Shown: one piece after another, positions 33,118 through 42,070 of the stretch
How the letters are laid out: the number at the start of each line of letters is the position of its first letter
How positions within the stretch are numbered: position 1 is the stretch's first letter
Origin: Cognatundibacterium oligocarboniphilum
GTDB taxonomy: Bacteria > Pseudomonadota > Gammaproteobacteria > Burkholderiales > Burkholderiaceae_D
Length of the DNA: 64,000 bases
Assembly: GCF_013377855.1 (NCBI RefSeq)
Contig: NZ_JABXYJ010000001.1
Coordinates: 186,001 to 250,000, forward strand
Direction: 5' to 3'
The notes under the pieces: model-generated
Seen by the model: only the letters and a program-made list of their open reading frames with translations
What the model was told of the DNA's origin: nothing
The model's database searches: none
Translations under genes and position numbers: made by a program

Positions 33118-35118
33118 ATGTCTTTTCAACGTACTGCGATGGCGATGGCCATCCTTTCGGCGCTGACCTGCGCCCACTCCTCCACGTTTGCGCAGGCAAT
33201 CAGCACTGTGACCGTCTCTTCCAATCCATTGGGAAATGATGAAGATATGCAGGTATTAACACCGGCAAAAATTCTGGCAGGCCCCGAGCTGCGCGCCAAA
33301 ATCGGCACATCTCTGGGGGACACACTGGGAGGTGAGCTGGGTGTCTCCGCTTCCGGCTTCGGAGCTGGTGCGTCCCGACCGATTATCCGCGGCCTGGAAG
33401 GGCCGCGCGTCAAAATCCTGCAAAACGGCATGAGCGTGGCGGATATTTCCAGCCTGTCCAATGATCATGCGGTCGCCAGCGAAAGTGCGACTGCGCAGCA
33501 AATCGAAATCCTGCGCGGTCCGGCAGCACTGCTGTATGGCAGTGGCGCCATCGGCGGACTGGTGAATGTGATTGATAACCGGATCCCGACCGTGCTGAAC
33601 AAGCAATGGAGCGGTGAAGCCGAATTGCGCAGCGGCAGCGTCAATCAGGAAAAAGGAGCTTCTTTTTCGATCGACGGCTCCAGCGGTAACATTGGTCTGC
33701 ATGTCGATGGCAACAACCGGGAAACTGGCAACTACCAGATTCCGGGTAATGCCAGCCTGAACGACAGCACCTCTGCCACCGGCAGATTGCCATCCAGTTT
33801 TACCCGTGAACATAGCCTGAGCTTGGGCGCATCCCTCATCGAGCAATGGGGTTATCTGGGTGCAGCAGTACAAAATCTGAATGACCATTACGGTATTCCC
33901 ACCGCGGAAAAATCGTATATCGACCTGAAACAAAACCGGCTGGATCTGGAAGGTCTGCTGAAATCGCCGCTGGCGGGATTTGACAGCCTGCAATTAAAAC
34001 TCAGCGGCACAGATTATCAACACACCGAAAATGCCGAAAATGGCACACCGGCCACTTATTTCAAAAATAAAATGCTGGAAAGCCGCCTGGTACTGAATCA
34101 CCCTGCATGGGCAGGCTGGCAGGGCAGCTGGGGATTACAGACAGAGCAGGTACGCTTTTCCGCTTTGTCGGCAGCCACCGGTCGCGCAGATACCGTGCCG
34201 CAAACCCGGTCCAGTTCAGTTGCCGCGTTTGTACTGGAACAGCGCCAGTTTGGTTCTGTTCTTGGCAGCGCAGGCCTGCGGCTGGAAAATATGAGCCGCA
34301 CGCCGGACGCTGCCAGCAATCTGCCGGGCAGGAGTTTTAGCCTGTATTCTGCTTCTGCCGGTGGTTTGTGGGAATTTACTCCCGGCTACAGCGCCGGACT
34401 CAGCCTGTCGCTGGCGCAACGCGCCCCGGCAACGGAAGAACTGTATTCCGAAGGTCCGCATGAATCAACCGCGACCTTCGATATCGGTAATCCAAATATG
34501 AAAAAAGAGAGTTCGCACAATCTCGAATTCAGCCTGCAAAAAACAAACGGCCTGCTGCGCTGGAAGATCAATGCATTCCTGAATCAGATTAATAATTATA
34601 CCTACGGTCATACCGATGGCACCAAGGTCAATGCCGAAGGTATGGCGGTAGCAGACGGTGAATTTACCCAGCGTTACTGGTCGCAGGCCTCGGCACAGAT
34701 TCACGGCGGTGAAGCGGAAATCAGCTATAACCATACCGGGGAAGGTTTTTCTGCCCGCGTCTTTGCCGACCTGTCACGCGGCACGCTGACAGACATCGGC
34801 AATCTGCCGCTGCAACCGGCAGTGCGCACCGGTATCGACCTCGGCTATAAAATGAATGGCTGGCGTACCGGCCTGAATATCCTGCATGCCAGCCAGCAGG
34901 ACCGGCTCGCCAGTTTTGAGAGTTTCGTCACCCCGTCTTACACCAGGGTCGATGCCAGCCTCAGCTACTCGCATCCATACGCGCGCAGCCAGGTGACCTG
35001 GTTCCTGATGGCCAAAAACCTGTTGAATCAGGATATCCGGCTCTCCACATCAATCCTCAGAGAAACGGTCCCGCAGCCCGGAAGAAACGTGATTGCCGGG
35101 GTCAGGGTCGGGTTTTAA
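33118..35118 (+). CDS. znuD: TonB-dependent receptor, ZnuD-like (zinc uptake)
   Basis: 666 residues. A signal peptide (SALTCAHSSTFAQA) precedes a plug domain with the very characteristic ZnuD stretch: RPIIRGLEGPRVKILQNGMS, then DISSLSNDHAVA, then IEILRGPAALLYGSGAIGGLVNVIDNRIP. The barrel ends in VIAGVRVGF with C-terminal Phe. ZnuD imports zinc (or haem) across the outer membrane. The long His-rich surface loop seen in several ZnuD proteins is not apparent here. ATG 33118 follows CAGGAATTC; an in-frame start at 33085 only adds hydrophobic residues. Confidence 0.82.
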   Translation: MSFQRTAMAMAILSALTCAHSSTFAQAISTVTVSSNPLGNDEDMQVLTPAKILAGPELRAKIGTSLGDTLGGELGVSASGFGAGASRPIIRGLEGPRVKILQNGMSVADISSLSNDHAVASESATAQQIEILRGPAALLYGSGAIGGLVNVIDNRIPTVLNKQWSGEAELRSGSVNQEKGASFSIDGSSGNIGLHVDGNNRETGNYQIPGNASLNDSTSATGRLPSSFTREHSLSLGASLIEQWGYLGAAVQNLNDHYGIPTAEKSYIDLKQNRLDLEGLLKSPLAGFDSLQLKLSGTDYQHTENAENGTPATYFKNKMLESRLVLNHPAWAGWQGSWGLQTEQVRFSALSAATGRADTVPQTRSSSVAAFVLEQRQFGSVLGSAGLRLENMSRTPDAASNLPGRSFSLYSASAGGLWEFTPGYSAGLSLSLAQRAPATEELYSEGPHESTATFDIGNPNMKKESSHNLEFSLQKTNGLLRWKINAFLNQINNYTYGHTDGTKVNAEGMAVADGEFTQRYWSQASAQIHGGEAEISYNHTGEGFSARVFADLSRGTLTDIGNLPLQPAVRTGIDLGYKMNGWRTGLNILHASQQDRLASFESFVTPSYTRVDASLSYSHPYARSQVTWFLMAKNLLNQDIRLSTSILRETVPQPGRNVIAGVRVGF

Positions 35119-35178
35119 AGCGGCAAAGTTGTTACTAAATGTAATAACGAACTGGAAAGAAATATTTACAATTCACAG

Positions 35179-35203
35179 TGGGAGGAGCAACTCCTCCCAT
35201 TTT
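35179..35203 (+). terminator. intrinsic terminator after the ZnuD-like gene
   Basis: TGGGAGGAG (35179-35187), loop CAA, CTCCTCCCA (35191-35199), then TTTT. Confidence 0.8.
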
Positions 35204-35379
35204 CATTGATCTGATCAAAAGTTCCACCCTTTTTCTGGCATCAGCATTCAATTTGTTTTTATTTTAAGTAAAATCCGTATTACATTCTGCGGACAGGCTC
35301 CCCATTCACCCTGAATTCAGAATATACTTAAAACCCATCAGTGTTTGTTTGCGCATTAATGTAATTTCTTGGGAATAGC

Positions 35380-36798
35380 GTGGGGATTTTCTCTCTTTTC
35401 AACAAAAAAGGTGGCAAAAAAGAAGATCATTCCACAGAGAAATCTTCTTCTAAGAAAACTCGTTCGCAATCCGGAAATACCGTCATCACTGGCTTCCAAA
35501 ACAGCGAGGTTTTCAGTAATTCTGTTATTGCCCAGCGCCATGTCGCACGTGCCACCGAGCGTAAGATTGACGCGATCGAGTTCGAGATGTCGCGCGATAT
35601 TGTCAAGACCCGGGTACCTGTCCGGAATAAACCGGATACCGCAGCAAACACTCAGCAAGGACTATCAGCCGACACGCAGCCGCTAAATGTACATGCGGAT
35701 GTACCGGCCTTCGCCTCTACGATGCCAATGACCATGCCGGCAGATTATCTGCTGGGTCAGAATACGGAAATTCCCAAAGCTGCGCTGGCCTACAGCGAAT
35801 CGGTGCCGGTGCTGGAAGAAGCCGCGATCCTGTTTGCAAGCGGTCAGACAGAAGTCGCCGAACAGATGCTGGACGCGGCAGTACATCATCAGCAACTGGG
35901 ACTGGCAACTGAGATTGGCTGGCAGATGTTATTCGATTTATACCGTATTACCAATAACCAGTATAAATTTGAAAGTCTGTCGCTGGATTACGCCAATAAA
36001 TTTGAGACTTCGCCACCGCTCTGGCCGGAAGACCAGAATGATGAACAGCAGGAAAAAGTTGCCGGTAATGTCGCAACGCCCAGTATTATTTTTCCCAACA
36101 AGCTCGACAATGGCATCGTCAAGGTTTTAGCGAAAATGCGCGAAGCCAGCACAAAAACCGATACGTTGCGGCTCGACTTTTCCCGTGTCAAAGAGGTTGA
36201 TCCGGTCGGTTGCGGACTGCTGTTGCGCTCTCTGAAAAATCTGAGAAAAACCCGGCACGACCTGATGCTGGTGGGCGCTCAGGATCTGGCAGAAAAAATC
36301 CGCGCCATACTGCAAGTCGGCCGCCGCGATGAAACCGAGGCACCCTGGCTGCTACTGCTGGAAATCCTGCAATTGCTGCATTTCCAGAATGCATTTGAAG
36401 AAGCCAGCATCGATTACTGTATTACCTTCGAAGTGTCACCCCCTTCGTTTGAAGCACCGAAAATGAATGTGACCAGCGCATTCCCGGAACTGCTCAATGC
36501 AGACGACGACTTACCTTCAGACCGGTTTATGATGCCGGCGGTAGTCGAATCCGGTGTTGATCCGCTGATCAAAGATATTGCAGAAAAAGCAGCACATCAG
36601 TCGATGCTGATCATCGACTGCAGCAAATTGAAGCGGGTTGAATTCAGTGCATCCGCGGAATTACTGAGCGGCCTGGCGCCGATAGTCAGCAAACCGGGTA
36701 AATCCATCCGTTTTGAAGAAGTAAATTATCTGGTGATGATGCTGTTTAACGCGATGGGTCTGAAAAATATCGCCAGCATTTCCCTGCGCAAGCACTGA
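35380..36798 (+). CDS. protein with two STAS-like domains and a lysine-rich N-terminus
   Basis: 472 residues from a GTG start (GGGA upstream). A short N-terminal motif IFSLFNKKGGKK is followed by a disordered Ser/Lys/Thr region. A helical part at about 140-215 (VLEEAAILFASGQTEVAEQMLDAAV) is tetratricopeptide-like. Two STAS-like domains follow: about 245-345 (LRLDFSRVKEVDPVGCGLLLRSLKNL) and about 380-472 (SMLIIDCSKLKRVEFSASAELL). No phosphorylatable serine is certain. STAS modules act in anti-sigma switches, transport and envelope lipid systems. The exact role is unknown; it may be a scaffold or signalling partner. Confidence 0.75.
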   Translation: MGIFSLFNKKGGKKEDHSTEKSSSKKTRSQSGNTVITGFQNSEVFSNSVIAQRHVARATERKIDAIEFEMSRDIVKTRVPVRNKPDTAANTQQGLSADTQPLNVHADVPAFASTMPMTMPADYLLGQNTEIPKAALAYSESVPVLEEAAILFASGQTEVAEQMLDAAVHHQQLGLATEIGWQMLFDLYRITNNQYKFESLSLDYANKFETSPPLWPEDQNDEQQEKVAGNVATPSIIFPNKLDNGIVKVLAKMREASTKTDTLRLDFSRVKEVDPVGCGLLLRSLKNLRKTRHDLMLVGAQDLAEKIRAILQVGRRDETEAPWLLLLEILQLLHFQNAFEEASIDYCITFEVSPPSFEAPKMNVTSAFPELLNADDDLPSDRFMMPAVVESGVDPLIKDIAEKAAHQSMLIIDCSKLKRVEFSASAELLSGLAPIVSKPGKSIRFEEVNYLVMMLFNAMGLKNIASISLRKH

Positions 36799-36926
36799 GA
36801 GCAGTTAATATTTAAGCTAGCCAGAAATAAGTAAAAACGCGATGGATATACGACAGGAACTTTCTGTACAGTTCTTTATATTTCTTCGCGACTCTCAGAA
36901 AATGCTTGATGCGACAAGAGGTAAGG

Positions 36927-37895
36927 TTACTTTGCCTTTGCATCGACCAGCGTAGCGCTGGATCGGCTCCGCTTGAAACTATACATATTTTGATCTGCGA
37001 GCTCCCAAGCCTCAGTCAAGCCGTGCAAATGGTTACGCATTGCCATTCCCACAGAGGCTCGTACCCCTCGTTCCGCTAAGCTTGTGAGCAAGCGTTGCCG
37101 TAGTAAAAGAGCACCGGTCTGATCACATTCAATCGCGATTATCCCGAACTCATCTCCCCCCAACCGGGCAATCATGTCTACCTCGCGTGTTGCCGATCGT
37201 AACGCTTGCGCCGTCGATTGCAACAAGATATCGCCGTTAGCATGCCCATCGATGTCGTTGACGCGCTTCAGATCATCGAGGTCTATAGAAAAAACGGCGG
37301 CCGAATGACCATATCGTTTACAGCGATCTTCTTCGCCGAGCAAAAACTGATTCCAAGCTCGTCGGTTCGCTAATCCTGTCAGCGCATCTGTGTAGGCTTC
37401 CAATTGTAATCGCTCACTTTGACGCTTCTGTTCCGCTAGTTTGAGCTCGTCGGTCAAAATCGTACTGAGAAAAGCTCCCATTAATTCGATCAAGGGAGTT
37501 TCGTTCACAATTTCGGAGGATTGAGGACGTGAATCTATCGCGCACAGGGTTCCGAATGTACTGCCGTCAGCGAGCGTAAGCGGCACGCCAATGTATGCTT
37601 GTATCGGAAACTGACGTATTATCGGTTTATCCGCATAAGCTGCTACTGCAGAGATATCTGGAGCGATGTGAGGCCCATTGTCCTTTATCATTTCGGAGCA
37701 TATTGAATCACTCCAGCGCAACACCGTACCAGGATTGATGCCTTCGCCGGAAGTTCGCAAAATGATCCAATCGTCACCTTCGGCACGAGTGATCATCCAA
37801 ATCCCGAAATCTATACGCTGCTTTAAAAAATCTAAAACATAGTCTCCGGCACTTTGAAAATCGGAAAAAATCTTAGGTATAGCAGTTGATTTCAT
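36927..37895 (-). CDS. GAF-GGDEF diguanylate cyclase
   Basis: 322 residues with no transmembrane segment. An N-terminal GAF sensor domain (about 15-150; FGIWMITRAEGDDW, YIGVPLTLADGSTFGTLCAID) is followed by a short linker helix and a GGDEF domain (about 165-315). The active-site GGDEF is intact (246-250), as are the substrate-binding GHANGDILL and an allosteric I-site RxxD (237-240). It should make cyclic di-GMP, with product inhibition. It lies downstream of the EAL gene, same strand, 102 bases apart. Its base composition is lower in G+C than its neighbours. Confidence 0.92.
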   Translation of the reverse strand: MKSTAIPKIFSDFQSAGDYVLDFLKQRIDFGIWMITRAEGDDWIILRTSGEGINPGTVLRWSDSICSEMIKDNGPHIAPDISAVAAYADKPIIRQFPIQAYIGVPLTLADGSTFGTLCAIDSRPQSSEIVNETPLIELMGAFLSTILTDELKLAEQKRQSERLQLEAYTDALTGLANRRAWNQFLLGEEDRCKRYGHSAAVFSIDLDDLKRVNDIDGHANGDILLQSTAQALRSATREVDMIARLGGDEFGIIAIECDQTGALLLRQRLLTSLAERGVRASVGMAMRNHLHGLTEAWELADQNMYSFKRSRSSATLVDAKAK

Positions 37896-37997
37896 ATCAT
37901 ACTCCAGCGTGCATACCTGCCAAACTATATTGCTTTAAAATAAAATTTATCAATTCGGAAATTGTCTGCAAACCACCGACAATATGGTCATTGATGC

Positions 37998-38777
37998 TTA
38001 ATTCCAAGCAATCGGATCAATGACGCCGATCGCCCGAAACGCCGGTCTGCAAAACAAATACCCTTGCATTAATTTGACACCAGCATCGCGCAGGAAGTCA
38101 CGCTCAGCAATGGTCTCAATGCCTTCGGCCAAGAGGCGTACATTTAACGCGGCACAGATGGCAACAATACCACTGACGATTGCCTGTCTGGGTTTGCTGG
38201 TATCGATGCCGCGTACCAACTCCATATCGATTTTAATAATATCCGGCTGATACTCCGCGAGCAGATCCAAACCAGCATAACCAGCGCCGAAGTCGTCAAT
38301 CGCAGTATGGAAACCAAAGCGGTTATATTCACGAAAGATATTGACCAGATGCGCCCGATCCTGAATCTGCTCCCCTTCGGTTACTTCGAAGATGATGCGC
38401 TCGATTGGAAATTGGTAGCGTTGCGCCGCTTCAAAAGTGCTGCGAATACAAGCCGCCGGTTGATAGACCGCGTTGGGCAGAAAATTAATTGACAGCAATT
38501 CCTTTAATCCCAGTTCAGCAGCCCCTCGGATTGCTTGTACACGGCATGCCTGGTCGAACAAATAACGATTGGCGTCCGTTACCTGGGACAGAACCGAAAA
38601 AGCAGACTCGCCATTCGGTCCACGCACCAAAGCTTCGTGCGCGTAGATGGAACGCGTATCCAGATCAACGATTGGTTGGTAAGCGAACGCAATATCAAAA
38701 CCGAGAGGTTGATCATCTTTGCATTTTTGACAGCCCGCAAACGGCGGGTTGTTACGAGTAAGAAACGTCGAATTCAT
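37998..38777 (-). CDS. stand-alone EAL phosphodiesterase (cyclic di-GMP)
   Basis: 259 residues, essentially one EAL domain with a short N-terminal CxxC (Cys16, Cys19 in GCQKCKD). Catalytic residues look complete: EALVRG (Glu48), SINFLPN, IIFEVTE, AIDDFGAGYAG, IIKIDMELV, LLAEGIET and MQGYLFC. It should hydrolyse cyclic di-GMP. It is divergent from the BLUF photoreceptor gene across 450 bases and upstream of a diguanylate cyclase. Short EAL proteins partner with short BLUF proteins in the PapA/PapB pair of Rhodopseudomonas palustris, so light control is a reasonable inference. Confidence 0.92.
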   Translation of the reverse strand: MNSTFLTRNNPPFAGCQKCKDDQPLGFDIAFAYQPIVDLDTRSIYAHEALVRGPNGESAFSVLSQVTDANRYLFDQACRVQAIRGAAELGLKELLSINFLPNAVYQPAACIRSTFEAAQRYQFPIERIIFEVTEGEQIQDRAHLVNIFREYNRFGFHTAIDDFGAGYAGLDLLAEYQPDIIKIDMELVRGIDTSKPRQAIVSGIVAICAALNVRLLAEGIETIAERDFLRDAGVKLMQGYLFCRPAFRAIGVIDPIAWN

Positions 38778-39227
38778 ATGAGACCTATTTTTCGATCAAA
38801 ACGGCAGGGCGGCAATCAATTCGCGATTTGATTTCAGCCAGACAAGCGCTTGGATAAAATAACTTGCTCCCATACAGCGCAACCGTCATTCACATCTGCT
38901 AAGTTTCATGACATATAGTTATTTCCAGACACCAACAATCCAATACTTCACCAATCTACCACATATCTGCAAATAATGACGGCGGCGATAACGCTCACGA
39001 TCAGCACCTGACCGGCTGGAAAGTAACAATCAGCGTCCTGACAGGAACCGTTATTATTCCTGCACACCCGAGTGATATAGCTAGGACATCGCAATTATCT
39101 GAGGCGCTAAATCAGGCTCATCGATAGTGCCGCGCGGAGCACAACGTGATGAAAGTTATTGGTGTATCCTGTATTGGCCTGGCAGCATCGGGACGGTAGA
39201 AAATTCAACAACTAAGGAAGGAAAGCA
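38778..39227. other. divergent intergenic region between EAL and BLUF genes
   Basis: 450 bases with no supported gene. It must contain the promoters of the leftward EAL-GGDEF pair and the rightward BLUF gene; a strong Shine-Dalgarno (GGAAGGAAA) precedes the BLUF ATG. I found no clear operator symmetry. Confidence 0.5.
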
Positions 39228-39641
39228 ATGTCTATCAATCAATTAGTCTACGTCAGTCAAGCAACCAGAAAAATGTCCAGTATAGAGTTGAACGAAATAC
39301 TAAGAGTAGCAAAAAATAACAATCAAACGATGGATGTTACGGGTAGCCTATTTTATAACGGTGGTTGGTTTTTACAGGTATTAGAAGGTCCGCTGGATAC
39401 GCTCAATGCTCTCTATAAGAAAATTGAAAAAGATCCACGCCATAAAAATTCTCGAATTCTCTACAACGAGCCAGCAAAGTTCCGGACTTTTACCCGATGG
39501 AGTATGAATATGACCAATTTGGAAGACAGGCAAGCGGACAAATATGAACAGCTAATTGAAGTGATTGAAGCAGCTAAAACGGACCGGAAAATTGGTGCAG
39601 CATCTCCGGCTGTGACCTTACTGAAGATTTTCAAAGAATAA
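39228..39641 (+). CDS. short BLUF-domain blue-light photoreceptor
   Basis: 137 residues, a complete BLUF domain plus about 40 C-terminal residues that usually form capping helices. The flavin-site residues are spaced exactly as in AppA: Tyr8 (LVYVSQA), Asn32, Gln50 (WFLQVLEG), Trp91 and Met93 (TRWSMNM). It should bind FAD and shift its absorption in blue light. There is no output domain, so it must act through a partner; the divergent EAL protein is the obvious candidate. It is markedly AT-rich with A-ending codons, unlike the surrounding genes, consistent with acquisition by transfer. Confidence 0.93.
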   Translation: MSINQLVYVSQATRKMSSIELNEILRVAKNNNQTMDVTGSLFYNGGWFLQVLEGPLDTLNALYKKIEKDPRHKNSRILYNEPAKFRTFTRWSMNMTNLEDRQADKYEQLIEVIEAAKTDRKIGAASPAVTLLKIFKE

Positions 39642-39756
39642 TATTGGTATTAAAAATCTCTATTTTTCAGAACAATAAACAAGTGTATCTGTCAAAGTGG
39701 GTGGGTTTGAATTGATGAACCTGTAAAAGTTTCTGCATTAAATGTCACGGGGTTCA

Positions 39757-39885
39757 TCAGTGAGCGAATTTCTGAATTCGCTCACTTAATTTAATCATAA
39801 AGCGATTCAACGCCAGACGCCAATTCTGAATCGGCATGATCCACATCTTAACAGCTTGCACAGTCGTCAGATAAATCACTTTCAT
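39757..39885 (-). pseudogene. C-terminal fragment of an IS256-family transposase
   Basis: 43 codons ending in TGA, reading MKVIYLTT, MPIQNWRLALNRFMI and ERIQKFAH. This is the conserved C-terminal tail of IS256-family (mutator-type) transposases, where full proteins have ESALKVIYLA, then W-T-MPI-x-x-W-x-x-ALNRF. An in-frame TAA four codons upstream and the lost DDE region show it is a dead remnant. Confidence 0.8.
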
Positions 39886-39907
39886 TGCAGACTCTTACCC
39901 AAACCTG

Positions 39908-39935
39908 CTTGTAAATCCGGGAACACACCCCACTT
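39908..39935 (+). promoter_or_regulatory. sigma32-like promoter in the right end of the IS remnant
   Basis: CTTGTAA (39908-39914), 13 bases, CCCCACTT (39928-39935). Consensus sigma32 is CTTGAAA-N13-15-CCCCATNT; one mismatch in each element. It points towards hslV, whose ATG is about 200 bases downstream, a heat-shock operon in most proteobacteria. It could be chance within the element's terminal repeat. Confidence 0.4.
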
Positions 39936-40138
39936 TCTATGCCATCCGGATTCAACCTGAGTCCATATCTGCCCGTTCAGCTTCTAGTTTTGCAAAATCG
40001 AATCCATACTTCTTTATTTTTCAAATATTTAAATGCTAGTAAGCACCAACATAAATCTTCTGCAGATGCCTGTCATCCAGACCATCGCGACGACCGCACA
40101 GAACTCAGGACATCCTTCAATTTAATACGGGATACTCT

Positions 40139-40675
40139 ATGGAACAATTTCACGGCACCACCATTCTGACCGTTCGCCGCGGCAACAGCGTCGCGCTGGG
40201 CGGAGATGGTCAGGTCACGCTTGGCAATATTGTTATGAAAGGCACGGCCCGCAAAGTGCGCAAGCTGTATCACAACAAAGTGCTGGCCGGTTTTGCCGGC
40301 GGGACAGCAGATGCCTTCACGCTGATTGAACGCTTCGAATCCAAACTCGAAAAACATCAGGGACATCTGATGCGTGCATCGGTCGAGCTGGCCAAGGACT
40401 GGCGCACTGACCGCATGCTGCGTCGCCTCGAAGCCATGCTGCTGGTTGCCGATAAAGACAGTACGCTCATCATTACTGGCAATGGCGATGTGCTGGAACC
40501 GAATCAGGGCATCGGTGCGATCGGCTCCGGTGGGACTTATGCGCAATCCGCTGCGATTGCCCTGTTTGAAAACACGGATTTATCCGCGGTCGAGATTGTG
40601 AAAAAATCGCTGACTATCGCCGGTGAACTGTGCATTTATACCAATCTGTCCCACACAATAGAAACACTGGAATAA
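40139..40675 (+). CDS. hslV: HslV peptidase subunit of the HslUV protease
   Basis: 178 residues. A proteasome-type peptidase whose mature N-terminal threonine is Thr7, after removal of MEQFHG ([11 protein letters not shown]). Typical motifs are [23 protein letters not shown] and [15 protein letters not shown]. Twelve subunits form the double ring that HslU feeds with unfolded protein. It precedes hslU by 33 bases. The upstream IS remnant may have altered its promoter. Confidence 0.97.
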
Positions 40676-40708
40676 AGGTAATTCGTCGCCGCATTCAGCA
40701 GGATAGCG

Positions 40709-42070
40709 ATGAAGCAAAGTAGAAAGAATATGATGAATATGACCCCACAGGAAATCGTTTCCGAACTGGATAAACATGTTGTCGGTCAGGACAAAGCCAA
40801 GCGCGCTGTCGCTATTGCCTTGCGTAACCGCTGGCGACGCCAGCAGGTGCAGGAACCGTTGCGCCATGAAATCACACCGAAAAACATTCTGATGATCGGC
40901 CCGACCGGCGTTGGCAAAACTGAGATTGCGCGCCGGCTGGCCAAGCTGGCTGACGCACCATTCATCAAAATCGAAGCCACTAAATTCACAGAAGTCGGTT
41001 ATGTCGGCCGCGATGTCGATACGATTATCCGCGACCTGATCGACATCGGCATCAAACAAACCCGGGAAGTCGCCACCCGCAAGGTCCGTCTGCGTGCCGA
41101 AGATGCCGCCGAAGACCGCATCCTCGACATCCTGCTGCCGCCGGCGCGTGATTTTGGCATTCACCCGGAAGGCGAAACCCCGCCGGCAGCTGACAATGCC
41201 ACCCGCCAGACATTCCGCAAACGCCTGCGCGAAGGCGCGCTGGACGACAAGGAAATCGAGATCGAAGTCGCCGAAGCATTGCCGCAGATGGAAATCATGG
41301 CGCCGCCGGGTATGGAAGAAATGACCGAACAGATCAAATCCATGTTCAGCGGTATGGGCAGCGGGCGCAAAAAATCGCGCAAGATGAAAATTCGCGAAGC
41401 CTTCAAACTGCTGGTCGAGGAAGAAGCCACCAAACTGGTGAATGAGGAAGATCTGAAACAGGAAGCGATCCGCAATGTCGAACAGAACGGGATTGTGTTT
41501 CTGGATGAAATCGACAAGATTGCCTCACGTTCCGAAGTTGGCGGCGGTGAAGTATCCCGCGCCGGCGTACAACGCGACCTGCTGCCACTGGTGGAAGGCA
41601 CGACCGTGAACACAAAATACGGCATGATCAAAACCGATCACATCCTGTTTATTGCTTCCGGCGCTTTCCATCTGGCGAAACCGTCAGACCTGATTCCGGA
41701 ACTGCAAGGCCGCTTTCCGATCCGCGTGGAACTGGAATCGCTGTCCATCGCAGACTTTGAGCGCATTCTGACCAGCACCGATGCTTGCCTGACACGTCAA
41801 TACCAGGCCTTGCTGGCAACTGAAGGGGTCGCTATCGATTTTACGCCGGAAGGCATAGAGAAACTGGCTGGCATTGCGTTTTCGGTCAATGAAACCACCG
41901 AAAATATCGGCGCCCGCAGACTGTACACAGTGATGGAAAAATTGCTGGAGGAAATCTCGTTCGATGCGCATCAGAACAGCGGCCATACCGTTACCATTGA
42001 TGCCGCTTATGTCGATGCCCGGCTCGGCGCCTTGTCGGTGAACGAAGACTTGTCGCGTTATGTGCTGTAA
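40709..42070 (+). CDS. hslU: HslU ATPase subunit of the HslUV protease
   Basis: 453 residues. An AAA+ unfoldase that powers HslV. Walker A is GPTGVGKT (64-71), the pore motif is in [10 protein letters not shown], an inserted I domain spans about 115-240, Walker B is [11 protein letters not shown], and sensor/arginine segments follow ([21 protein letters not shown]). The C-terminus ends in LSRYVL, which docks on HslV. ATG 40709 has a good AGGA; the family start aligns with MNMTPQEIV at 40733, so a shorter form is possible. Confidence 0.97.

Follow-up and report, generated by a model that had tools for sequence, protein, structure and literature searches.

A short BLUF protein beside a stand-alone EAL phosphodiesterase and a GAF-GGDEF cyclase: a candidate mobile blue-light cassette in Cognatundibacterium oligocarboniphilum

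For many short BLUF proteins we know of no partner. A locus of Cognatundibacterium oligocarboniphilum (host genome of 3.67 Mb in 34 contigs, same genus as genomes G063 and G104) raises this question in a specific form: does a short BLUF photoreceptor act on the stand-alone EAL phosphodiesterase encoded divergently beside it, and what is the part of the GAF-GGDEF gene that follows? The locus lies in a stretch of 64,000 nucleotides, which was analysed as a whole and is called the window here. A passage of one survey puts short proteins at 64% of BLUF proteins (PMC4844311). The combination of a separate short BLUF protein and a solo EAL protein is already known from PapB/PapA of Rhodopseudomonas palustris, and light raises hydrolysis in BlrP1 and in PapB/PapA, as passages of PMC8846402 describe. 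A trio of BLUF, EAL and cyclase was not found in the literature searched, which was open-access and covered mostly at title-listing level; this absence is weak evidence that the trio is novel.

Open reading frames and Pfam searches confirmed that the three genes are located where the first-pass annotation had placed them, with the EAL and BLUF genes divergent. The BLUF gene (39228..39641, plus strand) encodes 137 aa and scores 104 bits for Pfam BLUF (cut-off 25 bits). The EAL gene (37998..38777, minus strand) encodes 259 aa with an N-terminal CxxC tail (C16, C19) and reaches 161 bits for Pfam EAL (cut-off 31.3 bits). The GAF-GGDEF gene (36927..37895, minus strand) encodes 322 aa, with 103 bits for GGDEF and 28 bits for GAF (cut-offs 23.8 and 22.4 bits). 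The start codons of the EAL and BLUF genes are 450 bp apart (intergenic region 38778..39227) and the two genes, being on opposite strands, do not form one operon, a point against the cassette reading given below; the gap between the EAL and GGDEF genes is 102 bp.

The flavin-site residues of the window BLUF protein (Y8, N32, Q50, W91, M93), which we take to be equivalent to the named AppA residues, are intact, and the same five are retained in 9 of 9 BLUF proteins compared. Residues 8-97 align with residues 21-110 of the AppA chain 2iyg at equal length; thus the AppA spacing noted in the first-pass annotation fits. The best solved matches of this protein are Tll0078 and Slr1694. Residues E48, N98, E131, D161, D162, K182, E218 and Q238 of the EAL protein, presumably the EAL catalytic set, are invariant across 35 aligned sequences (window included), in agreement with its earlier description as a stand-alone EAL with complete catalytic residues. 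The third protein carries an intact GGDEF motif at 246 and an intact RxxD inhibitory site at 237-240, by which it is predicted to be a diguanylate cyclase.

Comparison of the window with Rugamonas fusca, at synonymous sites near saturation, gave pN/pS values of 0.06 for BLUF, 0.11 for EAL and 0.20 for GGDEF. Such values argue that the three open reading frames are not chance frames, and judged by them all three genes are under purifying selection between these two genomes. The G+C content of the BLUF gene is 0.391 (0.544 for the window) and lies below that of its neighbours. Sites found by a promoter and terminator scan were no more frequent than in shuffled sequences, and an Rfam search of window positions 34000-42000 gave no match up to E 0.5.

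All three genes are carried by an insertion of 3,092 bp (36797..39888, delimited by blastn against G032) between a STAS-domain gene on the left (35380-36798) and hslV on the right (40139-40675). Window positions 36796 and 39889 match the adjacent bases 8741 and 8742 of G032 locus L368. The insertion is clean, and the STAS gene adjoins hslV without the trio in 6 of 6 same-genus genomes examined, which come from nine same-genus genomes with an hslV position. At the right end tblastn revealed 42 codons left over from the C-terminal end of an IS256-family transposase (39760..39885, minus strand). They match database records labelled IS256 family transposase with 63% identity over 38 residues (E 5e-8), and Pfam gave no match for this remnant. 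A target-site duplication was not evident by eye, and a repeat search was uninformative. The genes of the trio sit at different sites in other genomes (G032, R. fusca), and in R. fusca the trio and hslV are found on different contigs. That the trio moved horizontally as one insertion forms part of the reading proposed below, which as a whole we give an even chance. About 1.6 kb past the window end the same genome encodes a second BLUF protein, directly after a GTP cyclohydrolase I gene (L158:904-2052, G000:C1). BLUF and GTP cyclohydrolase I genes are also neighbours in locus L257, and an ORF of similar appearance precedes a BLUF gene in L178.

The AlphaFold2 model of the EAL protein has a mean pLDDT of 88, with the first 15 residues below 50 and good values elsewhere. 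In structural alignment the top solved match is the stand-alone EAL protein of Vibrio cholerae (6ifq, 53% identity), followed by chains of the BLUF-EAL fusion BlrP1 (30-36% identity); we take 6ifq and 6ij2 to be VcEAL. Of 108 distinct relatives with at least 45% identity (window included), 105 have the CxxC motif immediately N-terminal to the EAL domain. When the set was widened to below 45% identity, 161 of its 190 rows had the motif, and the rows of at least 45% without it are L255 (from G209), L351, L355, L357, L051, L054, L379 and the incomplete L257. The tail is possibly a metal, redox or partner site. A four-cysteine metal site became less plausible, since C78 is common in distant EAL proteins and is replaced in three members with CxxC, and since the first 15 residues of the model have pLDDT below 50. 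ZpdA of V. cholerae was considered as a relative and dropped, being an EAL-HDOD protein according to a passage of PMC12607878.

The three genes occur in other arrangements in relatives. R. fusca carries BLUF, a CarH-type MerR gene, a chemoreceptor gene, EAL and GGDEF in a row, and over the three genes its proteins are 72-90% identical to those of the window (BLUF 90%, GGDEF 72-74%). A tblastn search of window positions 34001-42000 gave no chemoreceptor match and no MerR match better than E 1.9; the 450 bp between EAL and BLUF in the window thus carry no vestige of these two genes. The nearest relative, G032, has the EAL-GGDEF pair without a BLUF gene nearby (79% DNA identity to the window over 1.9 kb; GGDEF ortholog 80-81% identical), which counts against the cassette reading. 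A single origin is probable for the arrangements of the window and R. fusca, whose BLUF proteins are 90% identical; G032, placed between the two, would then have lost the BLUF gene or never had it. In R. fusca (L022:3280-5774) and in G128 (L212:8120-10779) the EAL gene adjoins or overlaps a chemoreceptor gene on its own strand, which suggests a link of this EAL to taxis. In both R. fusca and G172 the light genes are adjoined by genes for a flavin amine oxidase and a cyclopropane-synthase-type protein (L022:7751-10772 and L157:11715-15064). These are homologous between the two genomes (52% and 51% identity) and presumably of the kind known from photo-oxidative stress regulons.

In G172 (L157:8101-11375) genes for a CarH-type MerR protein, BLUF, LOV-GGDEF and EAL follow each other on one strand, three kinds of light sensor adjoining one phosphodiesterase. 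Entry 8c05 is a very close match of the LOV-GGDEF protein (E 4.8e-90), and we take it to represent the LOV-activated diguanylate cyclase type (LadC type). This type is described in a passage of PMC10396304. If translation of the G209 EAL gene (L255) begins at its first ATG, this start codon overlaps the stop codon of BLUF, the layout expected of a PapB/PapA-type pair; this EAL protein has no CxxC tail. G315 (L356:5861-7234) shares the divergent BLUF-EAL arrangement of the window, but its EAL reading frame is disrupted close to the end. Granulicella (L049) has, between its BLUF and stand-alone EAL genes, a gene similar to both GGDEF and EAL.

Is a BLUF gene beside EAL more often than expected? 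Among 195 family genomes EAL is present in 69 (E 1e-60 or better), BLUF in 78 and both in 38; the two lie within 5 kb in 2 of these 38, the window genome counted. Among 399 order genomes EAL is present in 47 and BLUF in 133, and here BLUF neighbours were counted by scanning the EAL loci directly. The 113 EAL loci scanned in the order reach up to about 6 kb or more per side (90 with more than 5 kb on both sides, 23 with less than 5 kb on one side). A BLUF gene was found within 2 kb of EAL in five of them, window not counted (G172, G209, G361, G466, G315). By chance 0.10 would be expected, given the 57 genomes and their 87 EAL-BLUF pairs (Poisson 8e-8, with genomes taken as independent, sizes rounded and the window left out). 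The other 108 of the 113 loci have no BLUF within 2 kb; thus this EAL is usually without a BLUF neighbour, which counts against the reading as a cassette. Among 71 named EAL loci, several of them incomplete, at least three have a BLUF gene within 5 kb (R. fusca, Rhizobacter, Granulicella). Of the window-BLUF orthologs (74-79% identity) in G056, G079, G126, G045 and G148, none has an EAL of this family within 5 kb, which again counts against that reading. EAL is carried by 97 plasmid records; in the five examined no BLUF is annotated within 4 kb of it, several neighbours being merely "hypothetical".

The five near-EAL BLUF proteins share no more than 42% identity with one another or with the window BLUF. 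The window, R. fusca and G144 proteins form a group with 88-91% identity, and the compared BLUF proteins outside this group reach at most 42%. On a quick tree of 146 EAL proteins (53 of 142 inner branches open) a BLUF neighbour was assigned to eight rows: the window, G172, G209, G361, G466, G315, R. fusca (BLUF about 3 kb off) and Rhizobacter (about 2.5 kb), with Granulicella excluded. This label needs 8 changes, at least 6 of them forced by supported branches. Shuffled labels needed 7.9 changes on average, so the label is scattered as by chance and separate gains are not proven. With neighbouring BLUF proteins so divergent and so scattered over the tree, this EAL family appears to acquire short BLUF genes as neighbours repeatedly, in the manner of PapB/PapA, and the presence of unrelated light sensors beside the same EAL family in relatives makes the pairing probably meaningful. 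The earlier proposal of a PapB/PapA-type pair stands in part: BLUF neighbours above chance in several lineages, the overlap in G209 and the BlrP1 folds speak for it, the count of only 5 in 113 loci against it.

Conserved co-occurrence of all three genes had been proposed as a check; a GGDEF ortholog (E 1e-60 or better) lies within 5 kb of EAL in only 2 of 195 family genomes, those of the window and G032, the latter without BLUF, and additionally in R. fusca. A conserved three-gene operon was rejected on this count. The EAL-GGDEF pair itself is kept in G032 and R. fusca. A gene with a GGDEF domain of at least 150 bits is found in 20 of the 113 EAL loci, a raw count, cyclases being common genes. 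The suggestion that the cyclase is under light control found no support, because the protein has its own GAF domain and its gene stands beside EAL without BLUF in G032. For the same reasons we take it as a local antagonist, not as light-controlled.

The reading we put forward, and hold at even chance, is a horizontally moved cassette in which a split light-regulated phosphodiesterase is combined with a local antagonistic cyclase. The short BLUF protein, which would bind FAD, would act in trans on the neighbouring stand-alone EAL protein, like a split BlrP1 and like PapB/PapA. Blue light would raise cyclic di-GMP hydrolysis by EAL, in the direction known from those systems. The GAF-GGDEF protein, its gene probably co-transcribed with that of EAL, would make cyclic di-GMP under a non-light signal of its own and so oppose the phosphodiesterase locally.

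Alternatively, the BLUF protein could act mainly on a regulator, as BluF beside BluR, the MerR gene having been lost in the window and BLUF left as an orphan or with another partner. In R. fusca, G144 and G172 the immediate neighbour of BLUF is a CarH-type MerR gene, and G128 has one next to its chemoreceptor-EAL pair. The patterns W-x9-E/D-H and x-H-x-x-G, which we take to mark CarH, are matched by 33 of 33 distinct MerR proteins checked, and two of these have CarH-type entries as their top solved matches. In E. coli BluF binds the MerR-like BluR, as stated in a passage of PMC3509220. However, the R. fusca CarH-type MerR protein as query matched 67 of 195 family genomes and gave no match in the window genome, where BLUF is nevertheless strongly constrained, and BLUF-EAL neighbours occur without such a MerR gene in G209, G361, G466 (locus starting at a contig end) and G315. 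We regard this explanation as quite unlikely. Simple hitchhiking, in which the trio shares a mobile insertion without functional link, EAL runs on its CxxC tail and BLUF is an independent photoreceptor, seems unlikely as well. It would account for the IS256 remnant and the clean insertion, for the rarity of the exact trio, for the many EAL relatives without a nearby BLUF and for the low G+C of the BLUF gene; moreover the CxxC tail may be the sensor or partner site of EAL itself, which counts against control by BLUF. It does not explain why BLUF and EAL are neighbours far more often than expected by chance and in scattered parts of the tree, nor why a LOV-GGDEF and a CarH-type MerR gene occupy the same spot in G172.

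The EAL protein might also be a RimA-type enzyme that affects ribosome modification via RimK, with BLUF tuning this effect. RimA (NF052265) is its best NCBIfam model, and in Pseudomonas fluorescens RimA has phosphodiesterase activity and binds RimK as an interaction partner, according to a passage of PMC4741518. Nevertheless, the score of 399 bits is under the cut-off of 430 bits and 0 of 9 RimK-family matches in the window genome exceeded the TIGR00768 cut-off; membership of RimA was rejected on both grounds, and we consider this explanation highly improbable.

Returning to the cassette with BLUF acting on EAL, a broader generalization can be put forward tentatively, as something we hold to be somewhat less probable than even: the CxxC-tailed EAL family would be an exchangeable output that repeatedly recruits photoreceptors unrelated to one another (short BLUF proteins on several occasions, CarH-type MerR proteins and a LOV-activated cyclase), light would set cyclic di-GMP via mobile cassettes with a destroying and a making enzyme, and the window would hold the smallest, three-gene form. 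An EAL family that has short BLUF genes beside it in several lineages offers a testable rule for finding BLUF partners. A compact natural cassette whose two cyclic di-GMP enzymes oppose each other would give optogenetics a point of departure and would help to ask how light reaches cyclic di-GMP in non-photosynthesising bacteria.

Compared to known systems, the window EAL protein is stand-alone like that of V. cholerae (6ifq, 6ij2), in whose aligned sequence the second Cys of the CxxC tail is missing. It resembles RimA by its top family model and differs from it by a score below the family cut-off in a genome where no RimK-family match exceeds the cut-off. Between its BLUF and EAL genes G172 encodes a close relative of the LadC-type LOV-activated diguanylate cyclase, whereas the window cyclase has a GAF domain and no LOV domain. 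As with BluF/BluR, relatives of the window BLUF are encoded beside a MerR gene; unlike there, the window genome is without a match to the R. fusca MerR query. The window shares BLUF plus EAL with BlrP1 of Klebsiella, whose chains are the nearest solved folds after V. cholerae EAL, but in contrast to BlrP1 and E. coli BluF its BLUF and EAL are unfused, encoded by two ORFs on opposite strands, with the EAL residues intact. PapB/PapA was compared here by its description: both have a separate short BLUF and a separate EAL with intact residues, and the window adds a GAF-GGDEF cyclase, a divergent gene order and carriage on an insertion.
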